From Bacteroidota bacterium (lineage in GTDB: Bacteria; Bacteroidota; Bacteroidia; JABEUT01): a DNA stretch of 50,806 nt. The notes beneath the pieces were generated by a model. It was not told where the DNA came from and searched no databases. It was given only the letters and a program-made list of their open reading frames with translations. A program made the position numbers and the translations under genes. The stretch is from positions 1,117 to 51,922 of the forward strand of contig JAKAOA010000006.1 of NCBI GenBank assembly GCA_021823405.1, read 5' to 3'. This document shows positions 4,438 to 23,915 of this stretch, piece by piece; the first letter of the stretch is position 1; each line of letters begins with the position of its first letter.

Positions 4438-4917
4438 TTAATTCGCAGATAACTCAAATTTGAGTGAAACGCAACTGCCTTTATCCGAAAATTCTACCTC
4501 ATCTGCCAGCCGGTGCATCAAAAAAACGCCTCTGCCTGTGGGCTTCTCTAAATTTACAGGGTCAGTAGGGTCGGGAAGATTTTGGAAATCGAATCCAATT
4601 CCCTCGTCACGAACGGTAAATGTTATCATGTTCGGGTCCGACTTGAAGGCGATATGTATCTTTTTATCCGGGTCCGATTTGTTGCCGTGGTAAATGGCAT
4701 TGTTCACCGCTTCGGTAATGGCGACAATAATATTGCCGTAGTGGTTTTCGTTCACCTTGTAGTTGGCGCAGATGGTTTCAATTAGCTTTTCTACAATGTT
4801 GATGCTGTCCGAGGTAGAGCAAAGCTCCAGTTGTTGAGCCATTTGAGAGGTATTTTTTTTTGTTTCCGAAGGTTGTTTTTTTGTCGAAGGTTTTTGCTTC
4901 GCAGATTGCTTTTTCAT
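4438..4917 (-). CDS. RsbW-like anti-sigma/ATP-binding protein (HATPase_c_2)
   Basis: 159-residue GHKL ATPase domain with no histidine phosphorylation domain. The N-box reads ITEAVNNAIYHGN, the G1 box VRDEGIGFD and the G2 box GRGVFLMHRL, which is the pattern of anti-sigma-factor serine kinases such as RsbW and SpoIIAB. The first 26 or so residues are Lys/Ser/Gln-rich and probably disordered. The start codon overlaps the stop of the DUF4175 gene as TAATG, so translation is probably coupled. No sigma factor, anti-anti-sigma or PP2C gene lies in the window, so the partner is unknown. Confidence 0.85.
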   Translation of the reverse strand: MKKQSAKQKPSTKKQPSETKKNTSQMAQQLELCSTSDSINIVEKLIETICANYKVNENHYGNIIVAITEAVNNAIYHGNKSDPDKKIHIAFKSDPNMITFTVRDEGIGFDFQNLPDPTDPVNLEKPTGRGVFLMHRLADEVEFSDKGSCVSLKFELSAN

Positions 4918-9138: not shown

Positions 9139-9726
9139 CTAATCGTCAAGCCCTTTACCCATAAGAATTTTTGAAGTATATTTTTCCACTCTTTCAGCGC
9201 GTGTTTTCGATTGTTTTGCCTGCGAAAAATAGAATATATACCCCCGCTGCCTTCCGGGTGTAAGTGTGAGGAAAGCTTTTTTCAGAGCGGCGTTTTCATC
9301 CAGCTTGTCTTGAAATTCTTCGGGTACGGCATAGTCGGATGTTTTTTTAAGTTCAATCTTTAGCCCTTTTTTTTCTGTTTCCCCTGCCTCTTTTATATAG
9401 GTCTTAAGTACATTTGCAAGTTTAATGATATCCTTAACGCCGGTAAAGCGCATCTGTCGAGGCAACTGAACATTTGGGGTTTGCTGAATTAGTAAATGAT
9501 GGCTATCCTTTAAGAGCGCGCCCTTGAAGAATAGCACCGCACAGTAATCCTTAAAGCCATGAATAAGAACTATATTTTTCCCTTCGTTTGTATAACACGG
9601 ACAGCCCCATTTTAACTCCTCTTCAAGGTCGCAACCGAGGATGATTTTACGAAGAGTCAGATATTCTTCCTGCCACCTTCCGGGTTTATTGAAAAACCAG
9701 TCAACTTTAGGGTTCATATTCTTCAT
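9139..9726 (-). CDS. YdeI/OmdA-type protein with DUF1801-like N-terminus
   Basis: 195 residues. The N-terminal half (VDWFFNKPGRWQEEYLTLRKII, CPCYTNEGKNIVLIHGFKDYCAVLFFKGALL) is the DUF1801/YdhG-like domain. The C-terminal end (LTPGRQRGYIFYFSQAKQSKT, RVEKYTSKILMGKGLDD) is the YdeI/OmdA bacteriocin-protection-type region. The biochemical role is unknown. The gene starts 6 bases after the VOC gene ends, so they are co-transcribed. Such small stress or accessory proteins are often found beside AHSA1, DoxX and VOC genes, as here. Confidence 0.85.
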   Translation of the reverse strand: MKNMNPKVDWFFNKPGRWQEEYLTLRKIILGCDLEEELKWGCPCYTNEGKNIVLIHGFKDYCAVLFFKGALLKDSHHLLIQQTPNVQLPRQMRFTGVKDIIKLANVLKTYIKEAGETEKKGLKIELKKTSDYAVPEEFQDKLDENAALKKAFLTLTPGRQRGYIFYFSQAKQSKTRAERVEKYTSKILMGKGLDD

Positions 9727-9732
9727 ATATTT

Positions 9733-10155
9733 TTAGCTTATTTTGTCACCTTTGAAAATCCATTGAACGCCAAATCTGTCATATAGCTGACCATATATCC
9801 CAAATGGCATCTCATGCAGCGGCTGAAATCTATCCTTTTGAGCGCCGAGCGAAAGTTTGTCAAAAATAGCTTTTAGTTCATTTAATTTGGCGCCAATTAC
9901 AAATATAGCGGAAGTGTTGCCTTGTTTGGGTTCATAATTAGGAGACGCCATCCAATCGGCGGAAGAAATTTCTATCTCACCGCACTTTAAATGAGCATTG
10001 ATAATCCGTCCGTGTTTCTGCCGCGGGAACTGGTCTTTCATTGGCGTATCTTGCAGTTTGGTTAGTATTAGCTCTCCGCCAATGCAAGAATGGTAAAATT
10101 TCATTGCTTCCGCACAGTTGCCGTCAAATAATAGAAATGGAATGGTACGCAACAT
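9733..10155 (-). CDS. VOC superfamily (PhnB-like glyoxalase/dioxygenase fold) protein
   Basis: 140 residues. The sequence FLLFDGNCAEAMKFYHSCIGGEL and the end YGQLYDRFGVQWIF are the signature of PhnB-type VOC proteins, small metal-site or metal-free enzymes often annotated 3-demethylubiquinone methyltransferase-like; the substrate is unknown. An upstream in-frame TTG at 10161 lies inside the promoter box, so I place the start at ATG 10155. The TATATTTG box ends 3 bases before this ATG, which predicts a leaderless message. It heads a three-gene operon. Confidence 0.85.
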   Translation of the reverse strand: MLRTIPFLLFDGNCAEAMKFYHSCIGGELILTKLQDTPMKDQFPRQKHGRIINAHLKCGEIEISSADWMASPNYEPKQGNTSAIFVIGAKLNELKAIFDKLSLGAQKDRFQPLHEMPFGIYGQLYDRFGVQWIFKGDKIS

Positions 10156-10158
10156 GGT

Positions 10159-10166
10159 CAAATATA
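10159..10166 (-). promoter_or_regulatory. -7 promoter box of the VOC operon, 3 bases from ATG
   Basis: Minus-strand TATATTTG is an exact TAnnTTTG match and overlaps the upstream TTG that an ORF caller would choose. It decides for the ATG at 10155 and predicts a leaderless mRNA. Confidence 0.5.
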
Positions 10167-10215: not shown

Positions 10216-10593
10216 TTATCTTGCCACCCTTCTGCCCGCCGGTCTGAAATACCAAGATGTCATTATAAAAAGAATTTGAAAAATGGGACCAAGCATTGCT
10301 TTTACGCCAAAGTCGCCGCACGCTATATGTGAAATAAGCGCTCCCGTCATAACAAAGAAAAATCCCGCATAAGCCCACTCTTTGAGGATTTTAAAACCCG
10401 GCATTAAAACTGCCGCCACCCCCAGAATTTTCCAAACGCCTAGTATTGTCATAAAGTACATCGGGTAACCCAAGACGCTTACCATGGCTGTCATATCTTT
10501 TTGCCTGAATATTTGCTGCAGTCCGCTTGAGAACATGCCGATGGTGAATAAACCGGTTGCTGCCCAATAAATAATTCTGTCTGATTTCTTCAT
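10216..10593 (-). CDS. DoxX-like small membrane protein
   Basis: 125 residues with four predicted helices. IIYWAATGLFTIGMFSSGLQQIF, the second helix GYPMYFMTILGVWKILGVAAVLMP and EWAYAGFFFVMTGALISHIACGD match the DoxX-like family found with AHSA1/ArsR operons. In other bacteria DoxX proteins associate with quinone- or thiol-linked oxidoreductases; the role here is not known. It follows the frameshifted AHSA1 gene by 6 bases and is the last gene of the ArsR operon. Confidence 0.88.
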   Translation of the reverse strand: MKKSDRIIYWAATGLFTIGMFSSGLQQIFRQKDMTAMVSVLGYPMYFMTILGVWKILGVAAVLMPGFKILKEWAYAGFFFVMTGALISHIACGDFGVKAMLGPIFQILFIMTSWYFRPAGRRVAR

Positions 10594-10599
10594 GGCTGC

Positions 10600-11083
10600 T
10601 TATTTTATTTTTCCCATTACTTCCTGTAATCGGTCGTGCGCCATATTCAAGCCCTGTGCGAAAGGCATCTTCAACAATTGGTCTCTCTTCTCGACCGATT
10701 CAAAAATCACGTGCATATTCAGTCGGCTGGTGTTGCCAGTCAGTTTTTCGAAGTCGTAAATCTCCAGTAGCACGCCCATTGGCGCATCCTCCATCTCAAA
10801 GGTACGGATGATTTTTTTTGTCCGGTATAAAATCATGAAAGGCGCCATTGCTCCGGAACACTACCTTTCCGCTTGTATCTTTCGATTCTAATTGATAACT
10901 CCCATGTTTTCTACCCTCAAATTTTAACACATGTGCGGTAGCGAATGGATTGGTCATAACCTGCGCAATAATATCAGGTTCGGCATGGGCTTTGAACAAT
11001 AGTTCTACCGGTAAATCAAATTCTCTGGTAATTTTCAAGTCCTGTTTGTCTGCCTCGGCGAATACTTTTGTTTTACGTTCCAT
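10600..11083 (-). pseudogene. AHSA1/SRPBCC protein split by an A8 frameshift
   Basis: Two overlapping frames together make one normal AHSA1 domain of about 160 residues. Residues 1-90 (MERKTKVFAEADKQ to HDFIPDKK) are read from 11083. The rest, IIRTFEMEDAPMG to LQEVMGKIK, is read one base out of phase, with a spurious M at 10848. The break is at a run of eight A (minus strand; T at 10812-10819): seven would give DKKIIRTFE, the usual family sequence, while eight gives DKKNHPYL and a stop. Both halves are otherwise well conserved, so this is a recent mutation, a sequencing error, or a site rescued by polymerase slippage. It starts 1 base after the previous AHSA1 gene. Confidence 0.85.
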
Positions 11084-11084
11084 A

Positions 11085-11606
11085 TTATTTGGTTTTAACG
11101 GTTAATTTATTTTCAAGATATATATCTAAGTTGTTGTGCGACATCGCGAATCCTTGTTCAAATCCCATTTTAATCATTTCTTCGAGTTGTGCCGCATTGT
11201 AAAATTCAATTTCAACAGTTACTGCCGTTTCATTTTTGTCAGGTAGCGATTCAAATTTTATTTTCCAAACAGGCGGCGGCAGAGGACTTATTTTATTCCC
11301 ATGTACATCGCAGAAGAATTGGCTCATTTCAAAATCATCGTTTTCGCGGATGGATTTGAATTCACATTTACTGTAATGTGTGTCACCATCCGGTCCCTTC
11401 ATAGCGTAAAGCCACGAACCGCCAACTCTGAACTCCATGCGTATGGTATCCGTTTTCCAGGGTTTGGGCGCCCACCACTCATCAATAACAGCGCTCTCTG
11501 TCCATGCTCTCCAAACCAACTCCTTTGGCGCGCTAAACGTGCGCGATACTTTAAGCTTTTTACCTGTTTCGTCTTTCTCGTAAACCGTTTTTAAAATTGT
11601 TTTCAT
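11085..11606 (-). CDS. AHSA1/CalC-family SRPBCC domain protein
   Basis: 173 residues forming one SRPBCC (START-like) fold with a deep hydrophobic ligand cavity; the ligand is unknown. Typical features are the N-terminal [31 protein letters not shown] and the C-terminal [18 protein letters not shown]. The start ATG overlaps the stop of the ArsR gene (ATGA), so the two are translationally coupled. ArsR-AHSA1 pairs are common in soil and aquatic bacteria, with the regulator controlling its own operon. Confidence 0.93.
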
Positions 11607-11929
11607 TTTTTTGTTTTATTTAATTGTTTTAATACTTCTTCCAATTTGTTAAACCTGTCATCCCACATTTTGCGGAATGGCTCGATGTATTTATCAATCT
11701 CTTTCATCGCATCCGGATTTAATTGATAATATATTGTTCTGCCTTGTTGCTTTTGTTTAAGCAGCCCGCATTCGCTAAGGATTTGGATATGTTTCGATAT
11801 GGTTTGCCTCGACGAATTAAAGTTGTCGGCAATGGCGCCGGGAGTCAATGCCTGCAACGCTACTAAACTCAATATCGCACGTCTTGTTGGGTCGGCAATC
11901 GCCTGAAAAACATCTCTTCGTGATTTCAT
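11603..11929 (-). CDS. ArsR-family winged-helix transcriptional repressor
   Basis: 108 residues with a single winged helix-turn-helix: [23 protein letters not shown], then [29 protein letters not shown] (recognition helix), and the wing [21 protein letters not shown]. No metal-site cysteine pair (CVC) is present, so it is of the SdpR/AHSA1-linked type rather than a metal sensor. The frame stays open to 12187, but that extension crosses the gene's own promoter and the rpsA leader, so ATG 11929 is the start. Two 18-bp inverted repeats around the promoter suggest autorepression. Confidence 0.93.
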
Positions 11930-21836: not shown

Positions 21837-23915
21837 TTATTTTGCAAGGATGATAAACTCGGTTCTCCTGTTTTTCCGTCTGCCTTCTTCAGTATCGTTA
21901 CTTGCCACAGGATTGGCAGCCCCGTAACCTTCAAAAGATAGCCGCGTGGATTCTATACCTTCATGTTCCAGCGCTTGCTTTACTGTAAATGCTCTGTCGT
22001 TAGACAAGGCAAGATTGTCTTTATCATTGCCAATATTATCGGTATATCCGGCAATCTTTATCTTCACGCCCGGGTTGGCTTTCAGAAATTTACCGAATTC
22101 GCCTATTACGGCAAGCGATACAGGTTCCAGTTCTGCGGAGTTGCTTTTATAGTAAATGTTGTTCAGGGTGTAATTGGAGCCAATTGCAATTGGTTTAACT
22201 GTAAAATCAACAGTTGCAGGTTTTCCCGTAAATGTGTCTTTTATGCTGATAACGGTGGAGTTAAACGCAGCTCCCTTTTTATTCACAGTCAGCACATAAT
22301 TAGCGGAATCATTCACATCAACGGCAGTTACAAAGGTCCCGTTCATGGTGTCCGTAATCACGGTAGCGGTCTTTTTTGTTTTAGCATTAGTTACCGTAAC
22401 CTCCGCACCTGTTACAATATTGCCATTCACGTCTGTGGTCTTTCCCTTCACCAACGCTACCTTGTCAGGTCTGGCTTCCTGGTACAACGCAAATCCAAAA
22501 ATATCGTATCCTCCCATGTTCCTGCCTTTGGTGCGGTTAGGGTCGTTGGAGCAGAAATAACCCTTTTTACCGTCGGTGCTTACAAAAAAGCCAAGGTCGT
22601 CTCCGGGGCTGTTTATCGGGTAGCCGATATTTACCGGATCCTTCCAGTTACCTGCACTATCCATACGCGAATAAAAAATATCGTAGCCGCCTATACCCAT
22701 GTGTCCGTCCGATGAGAAATAAAGGGTATGGCTGTCGGTATGTATAAAAGGGCTTTCCTCATTGCCGGGTGTATTTATTGGCGCTCCAAGGTTAACCGGC
22801 GGGCTCCAGTCGCCGGTTTTAACGTCTTTTACAGTTTTGTATATATCAGTTTTACCCATGCCCCCTGTTCTGTCGCTTGCAAAGTAAAGGGTGGTGCCGT
22901 CGGCGGTAATGGATGGTTGAGAATCCCATGCGTTGGGGTCGTTCACCTGCTGTCCCAGATTTTCTATTTTCATCCAGCGTCCGTTGTTATAGTTGGTATA
23001 GTAAATATCGCAATTGCGGTATGAACCCTCATCTTCCGACTGGCAGATGGTAAAATAAAGCGATTTATCGTCTATCGTAATGGTGGGACCTCCTTCGTTT
23101 CTTCCGGTGTTGAAGGGTGGAGGCAGCGCGCTTCCAACAGAATAATCGCCATCCGGTTGCAGTTCGCTCTTCATGAAATATTCCTTCTCATTATCGTCAG
23201 GCGTGGCAACATTATTTAAATCCTGATAGGGTAGCTTCCGCGTAAAATAGGCATACCGGTCATCAGGCGAAATGCAGGCGAGGTATTCGTCATGGGTAGT
23301 GCAAAGGTCTTTAACCGGATAGGGGTCAAAAGGCACAGGATGGTCGTAAATGCCCGTGTAAAACTTGGCATATTTCAGCATCTTCTTCGCCTGATACAGG
23401 AACTCGTCGTAATCCTTGTTGAACTTCTTTACATCATCGTCTTTAAAATTCAGAAACTTCTCCAGATAAGTTACAGCGTCTTTATACTTTTCATCTTCAT
23501 AATAACTGAACCCGATATAATAGTATGGGTCTGAATGGTACTTTGGGCATTGCTGAACCACCTTCAGGAAATAAGGCACAGCAGGAGCAAATGGAGCATT
23601 ATCGCTTATCTCCGTCTTAATCAATTCTTCGGCATAAGCAAAGTTTGCGTCAACATAGTCGGGTTCCAGTTGCAGGGCTTGCTGTAAATATGCCATACGT
23701 TGCGGTTTCTCTACTTTTTTCTTATCAGTGCCTTTTTTATACAACTGTACCGCCTTGTCGTCATCCATCTGCTGGCACGGGTTCTCATCCTGCGCGTAAG
23801 ATAGCCCCCCCCATAATGTAAAAGTGAAGATAAAGAGTAGAAACGCCCTTTCTGACAGTAAACAGGACTTACTGAAAACAGTTTGTTTATTTGTACGTTT
23901 TATCGAGTCCGGCAT
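21837..23915 (-). CDS. TPR / PD40 beta-propeller / OmpA-family outer-membrane-linked protein (PorE-like architecture)
   Basis: 692 residues. A signal peptide ends near LSYAQ at 42. Helical TPR-like repeats follow (about 50-165), then a PD40/WD40-like beta-propeller (about 205-470) with blades such as QPSITADGTTLYFASDRTGGMGKTDIY and ESPFIHTDSHTLYFSSDGHMGIGGYDIF. Next is a carboxypeptidase-regulatory-like domain (about 488-570), and an OmpA C-terminal peptidoglycan-binding domain at 585-692 (YTDNIGNDKDNLALSNDRA). This domain order is that of the T9SS component PorE, which is a lipoprotein; this one has no lipobox cysteine, so orthology is open. It runs divergently from the PKD adhesin and PorP/SprF genes. 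Confidence 0.88.
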   Translation of the reverse strand: MPDSIKRTNKQTVFSKSCLLSERAFLLFIFTFTLWGGLSYAQDENPCQQMDDDKAVQLYKKGTDKKKVEKPQRMAYLQQALQLEPDYVDANFAYAEELIKTEISDNAPFAPAVPYFLKVVQQCPKYHSDPYYYIGFSYYEDEKYKDAVTYLEKFLNFKDDDVKKFNKDYDEFLYQAKKMLKYAKFYTGIYDHPVPFDPYPVKDLCTTHDEYLACISPDDRYAYFTRKLPYQDLNNVATPDDNEKEYFMKSELQPDGDYSVGSALPPPFNTGRNEGGPTITIDDKSLYFTICQSEDEGSYRNCDIYYTNYNNGRWMKIENLGQQVNDPNAWDSQPSITADGTTLYFASDRTGGMGKTDIYKTVKDVKTGDWSPPVNLGAPINTPGNEESPFIHTDSHTLYFSSDGHMGIGGYDIFYSRMDSAGNWKDPVNIGYPINSPGDDLGFFVSTDGKKGYFCSNDPNRTKGRNMGGYDIFGFALYQEARPDKVALVKGKTTDVNGNIVTGAEVTVTNAKTKKTATVITDTMNGTFVTAVDVNDSANYVLTVNKKGAAFNSTVISIKDTFTGKPATVDFTVKPIAIGSNYTLNNIYYKSNSAELEPVSLAVIGEFGKFLKANPGVKIKIAGYTDNIGNDKDNLALSNDRAFTVKQALEHEGIESTRLSFEGYGAANPVASNDTEEGRRKNRRTEFIILAK

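Follow-up and report, generated by a model that had tools for sequence, protein, structure and literature searches.

We analysed a window of 50,806 nt (the whole stretch under study, from contig JAKAOA010000006.1 of the Bacteroidota bacterium assembly GCA_021823405.1) and found a tight cluster of genes on one strand, encoding in order an ArsR-type regulator, an intact AHSA1-family protein, a broken AHSA1-family protein, a DoxX_2 protein, a PhnB/glyoxalase-like protein and a DUF1801/OmdA protein (Table 1). The cluster of relatives is alike: one or two AHSA1 genes come immediately after ArsR and are followed, in most, by DoxX and DUF1801 genes. The AHSA1 genes of the window (11085-11606 and 10600-11083) stand in tandem behind ArsR, and tandems also occur in four relatives (L003, L006, L007 and L011), which hints at a recurring pair. 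Apart from the broken copy, two PF08327 genes of the genome are intact, the upstream neighbour being one of them. A literature search with AHSA1, SRPBCC and ArsR taken as three terms together returned 0 papers.

Table 1. Coordinates of the broken AHSA1-family gene and its cluster in the window
Feature	Position	Strand	Remarks
ArsR-type repressor, first gene of the cluster	11603-11929	-	
Second AHSA1-family gene, intact, 173 aa, directly upstream of the broken copy	11085-11606	-	PF08327, E 6e-21
Broken AHSA1-family gene, first half	10796-11083	-	AHSA1 profile 1-60, 13.0 bits; ends CTT TGA
A8 run, frame change	10812-10819	-	A7 in 4/21 orthologues, longer in 0/21
CTT TGA G: last sense codon of the zero frame, premature stop and next base	10795-10801	-	RF2 +1 slippery codon and stop; lacks the purine-rich stimulator
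AHSA1 domain, second half, in the other frame, conserved up to its own stop	10600-10811	-	AHSA1 profile 59-124, 14.4 bits
DoxX_2 membrane protein gene, intact, 6 bases downstream	10216-10593	-	PF13564
PhnB/glyoxalase-like gene, same cluster	9733-10161	-	PF06983, PF00903
DUF1801/OmdA gene, same cluster	9139-9726	-	PF08818, PF13376

The zero frame of the broken gene starts at 11083 and comprises 95 codons closed by a TGA stop at 10798-10796. Its first 88 codons give an AHSA1-family reading and lead into eight A's on the coding strand (T8 on the plus strand), where the frame changes; conserved AHSA1 sequence then goes on in the next frame, which is open to 10600. We found this break to be the only one, with 0 further stops or gaps in the window copy. 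Each half alone falls below the Pfam AHSA1 (PF08327) cut-off of 22.1 bits, and the protein read through the break, in which X marks the joint, reaches 28.1 bits across profile positions 1-124, the halves meeting at position 59-60 of 125. Hence, both halves abut at mid-domain. Among solved structures, 1xuv (hypothetical protein MM0500) is nearest by sequence, at E 1.7e-26 over residues 4-160; no NCBIfam family was matched by either half or by the read-through protein, and the viral contigs searched held no relative. An earlier note on this DNA had placed the homopolymer and the AHSA1 halves in two frames correctly, in both coordinates and statement, and its description of the downstream DoxX gene as intact and close-packed also agrees with what we found.

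We searched 100 genomes at the DNA level, and 18 matched, with the genome itself among them. The orthologue set (n = 21) consists of 12 copies from this search and nine from the 11 loci of the named collection; of the latter, L054 duplicates L004 and was not counted again, and L063, a distant actinobacterial match, was dropped. Two intact paralogues (L020 and L021, adjoining L011 and L006) stand outside the set, and short partial matches of the DNA search (L015-L019 and L022) were left out. Nearly all named relatives are Bacteroidota, and a Chitinophagaceae record is among the nearest three. The gene is present in eight of 10 other genomes of the same genus; the two that lack it are 60% and 84% complete. 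We found one uninterrupted frame in all 21 distinct orthologues, including 8/8 same-genus copies found, and so the split gene is more than chance. These intact copies sit in a matching neighbourhood, with ArsR upstream and DoxX/DUF1801 nearby. At the site of the break, an uninterrupted A7 occurs in four orthologues, and the remaining 17 have another base inside the run or at most six A's; a run of at least eight A's was found in none of the 21. By this comparison, A7 would be the natural precursor of A8.

An ATG at 10848, upstream of the second half and in its frame, would allow two genuine half-proteins to be translated separately. We consider this hardly conceivable, as the split cuts through one domain, neither half reaches the family cut-off and split orthologues number 0/21.

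For the second half, we found pN of 0.12-0.29 and pS of 0.70-0.90 against the 12 orthologues of the DNA search, and for the first half, pN of 0.15-0.27 and pS of 0.64-0.94 against the same 12. These levels are like those between intact relatives in both halves; only pN and pS are given since synonymous sites are saturated and dN/dS is not computable for most pairs. Where columns are invariant across the 21 orthologues, the window copy has retained 18 of 19 in the first half and 14 of 15 in the second.

In both halves, the broken gene ranks first in divergence among 12 copies compared, and this rank, taken alone, tells against a recent break. The ArsR gene of the window is also the most diverged (0.345 vs. 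at most 0.256 for the others) and DoxX has the highest divergence of nine; DUF1801 is tied second of 12 and so is not the most diverged. Since ArsR and DoxX are equally diverged, we read the top rank as a lineage effect instead of single-gene decay, and we set aside relaxed constraint, although DUF1801 does not follow the pattern. From these comparisons, the broken gene appears to have no clear decay of its own. Hence, with the second half as constrained as the first and most tested neighbours equally diverged, the break is either very young or exists only in the consensus. An old pseudogene was rejected, given the single break, the low pN beside high pS and the equal divergence of ArsR and DoxX; many disabling changes in sister genomes, which the earlier note had named as the mark of a plain pseudogene, were not found, as 21/21 orthologues are intact.

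In an AlphaFold2 model of an intact orthologue with nine others (mean pLDDT 77.2, pTM 0.72), the break falls at residues 89-91, in the turn between predicted strands 74-86 and 90-96. Beyond it, the model has strands 90-96, 104-113 and 119-127 and a helix at 141-159. Since the stop is the fifth codon after the run, the truncated protein would lose the last three strands and the C-terminal helix and, judged by this model, is very probably non-functional.

We think a recent one-base break in a once functional AHSA1-family gene the probable explanation, though with little more than even confidence. In this reading, a Chitinophagaceae-like bacterium would have had, within an ArsR-led cluster, a working gene of the AHSA1 family (SRPBCC, helix-grip). 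Polymerase slippage may have added one A to the A run in the Lys-Lys-Ile codons, and translation would then halt at the fifth codon past the run, with loss of the last three strands and the C-terminal helix. In evolutionary terms this break would be very recent, as constraint still looks complete in the half that it orphaned. The extra base would then be truly in the DNA of the cells, with loss of function and, we infer, little or no rescue. Of the four alternatives in the earlier note (recent null mutation, phase switch, slippage-rescued gene and base-calling error), the recent null is best supported, with 21/21 orthologues intact and no decay, and tract conservation and a census of homopolymers speak against the phase switch.

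This census covered 445,688 bases of the genome, taking in the first 100 listed places. Its 107 A8 runs divide into three too near an end, 71 lacking a two-sided coding signal in sense and 33 with one. Of these 33, 30 are in frame, two are gene junctions and one is the broken AHSA1 gene; where the run reads as T8 and has coding sequence on both sides, the frame is kept in 11/11 cases. Among all A/T runs of at least seven between coding flanks in the 446 kb (n = 137), we found 131 in frame, four gene junctions, one unclassed and one AHSA1 break, with gene junctions judged by eye from frame opening and stop positions. Hence, since the AHSA1 gene is the only one broken among 33 A8 runs, genome-wide homopolymer error is excluded. 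Other frame changes of the genome that were not classed as gene junctions lie at C5:10583-10589 (T7) and C29:519-523 (A5).

The census thus disposes of the genome-wide form of the base-calling error, and a local consensus or strain-mixture error, in which the cells have an intact gene and the assembly alone contains the extra base, is kept as a lesser but real possibility. The complete lack of decay, the single copy and the position at a homopolymer are equally expected from such a local error. The assembly consists of 183 contigs, the three nearest named relatives are all metagenome-assembled, and the part of PMC3711429 that treats BLAST-confirmed singletons of this kind puts most of them down to sequencing error. 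Against it, there is no systematic homopolymer problem, as the in-frame A/T runs indicate.

The homopolymer lies within coding sequence and at the break point, as would suit a phase-variable switch in which run length often changes and selection keeps the switch. We give this very little credence. No long tract is maintained in the orthologues, which speaks against it: none has a run of eight or more and 17/21 lack even A7. The genome has 420 A8 runs in total, and those between coding flanks are nearly always in frame, as counted above. The AHSA1-family product is also presumably cytoplasmic and not surface-exposed, which we weighed against a switch. A contingency gene was therefore rejected on tract conservation and the A8 census. 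Elsewhere in the window, the gene for a PD40/OmpA-domain protein of 692 aa (21837-23915, minus strand) carries, in its signal-peptide region, an in-frame G8 run (coding strand, 23805-23812) that is better placed for phase variation than the A8 run of the AHSA1 gene. The HATPase_c_2 gene at 4438-4917 (minus strand, 159 aa, intact) contains an A9 run at 4853-4861 and two further 7-base A/T runs.

The zero frame of the broken gene ends TAC CTT TGA G; a ribosome slipping +1 there, from CTT to TTT, would read GAG next, in exactly the conserved frame. Hence, it has one feature of the programmed site of release factor 2 (RF2; prfB), a zero frame ending in CTT TGA with the productive frame at +1. The product of such a shift would be 160 residues long and altered at five of them, NHPYL replacing IIRTF-type residues, and four of the changed positions (I91, R93, T94 and F95) are invariant in 10 orthologues. 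The motif, as defined in PMC12421855, has C following the stop and, 3 nt upstream, a Shine-Dalgarno-like AGGGGG/AGGAGG; both are absent from the site, ATCATCCG TAC CTT TGA G. No RF2-type site is conserved in the orthologues, as 21/21 need no shift, and the fold of 10720-10830 is unremarkable (z -1.01), with no sign of a stimulatory RNA structure. The genome's own prfB (L104, C106; CTT TGA C at 1539, reversed locus) has the canonical +1 site, GGGGAGG CAT CTT TGA C. Of 726 Bacteroidia prfB genes, 72% carry the +1 shift, and Bacteroidota ribosomes seldom use Shine-Dalgarno pairing (PMC8710568); frameshifting at the full prfB motif is reportedly low in F. johnsoniae (PMC12421855).

The CTT TGA coincidence was noticed post hoc. 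CTT TGA is the first out-of-frame stop at 1.27% of 75,553 codon positions (191 genes) and after 4/304 A6-A8 runs; hence, chance suffices for this ending. It arises because the family has a conserved Phe-Glu, here preceded by an ACC Thr codon (ACC TTT GAG).

The gene could still be leaky, with full-length protein made through slippage of RNA polymerase or the ribosome on A8 or through a +1 shift at CTT TGA; we judge such rescue possible but improbable. Rescue would need a message one base shorter (or two longer) or a ribosomal +1 shift; adding one base to the message gives access to a dead frame, which reaches a stop within about 30 codons. In favour of leakiness are the exact entry of the +1 shift into the conserved frame and the canonical site in prfB. 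Two accounts also favour it: the excerpt of PMC7022156 describes an E. coli rpoB +1-nt insertion suppressed at 5% through a 7-nt site three codons downstream, and that of PMC3812077 describes A8 indels, including one-A changes, bypassed at basal expression in E. coli, so that a null phenotype is not assured. Against it are the lack of the purine-rich stimulator, the G in place of the conserved C, the chance-level ending (~1.3%), the ordinary RNA fold and the altered invariant residues. For transcript slippage, the direction needed is disfavoured by two of three studies, in which one-base deletion on the poly(A) runs tested was undetected for E. coli RNA polymerase (PMC6260861) and transcript deletions were seldom within homopolymers (PMC5574713), contrary to PMC3812077 as excerpted. 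That the insertion was suppressed from birth, because it brought CTT TGA in frame four codons past the run and so allowed ribosomes, in a genome whose prfB has this shift site, to make some AHSA1 protein at full length, slightly changed and in amounts that follow RF2 levels, seems to us very improbable.

We compared the break with known systems. It is like the singleton frameshifts of GeneTack, which PMC3711429 ascribes to indel mutation or sequencing error and counts at 104,260 genes: one genome, intact relatives, a break at a homopolymer and no conserved shift signal. Nothing distinguishes it from them, the CTT TGA end being a chance-level extra. Taken by itself, the AHSA1 break is fresh, affects a single gene and belongs to a common kind. 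It also resembles C. rodentium tssM (A11, about 20% rescue by slippage; PMC4256274, in extract), where a poly-A run lies just before a premature stop with the conserved remainder out of frame. However, the run has eight A's and that of tssM 11, and the reported rescue adds A's whereas the transcript of the AHSA1 gene would have to lose one base or gain two.

With prfB, the site shares CTT TGA at the zero-frame end and a +1 shift into the productive frame, but it differs in lacking the Shine-Dalgarno-like stimulator, in having G for C after the stop and in not being conserved. With the suppressed rpoB insertion (PMC7022156), the break shares a one-base insertion that is followed, a few codons later, by a slippery codon and then a slow one, but the heptamer differs, and the AHSA1 product and selective pressure are putative. 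As a clean test case the locus has modest value: the one-base insertion is natural, and the frame that it breaks closes on an RF2 site lacking the stimulator.
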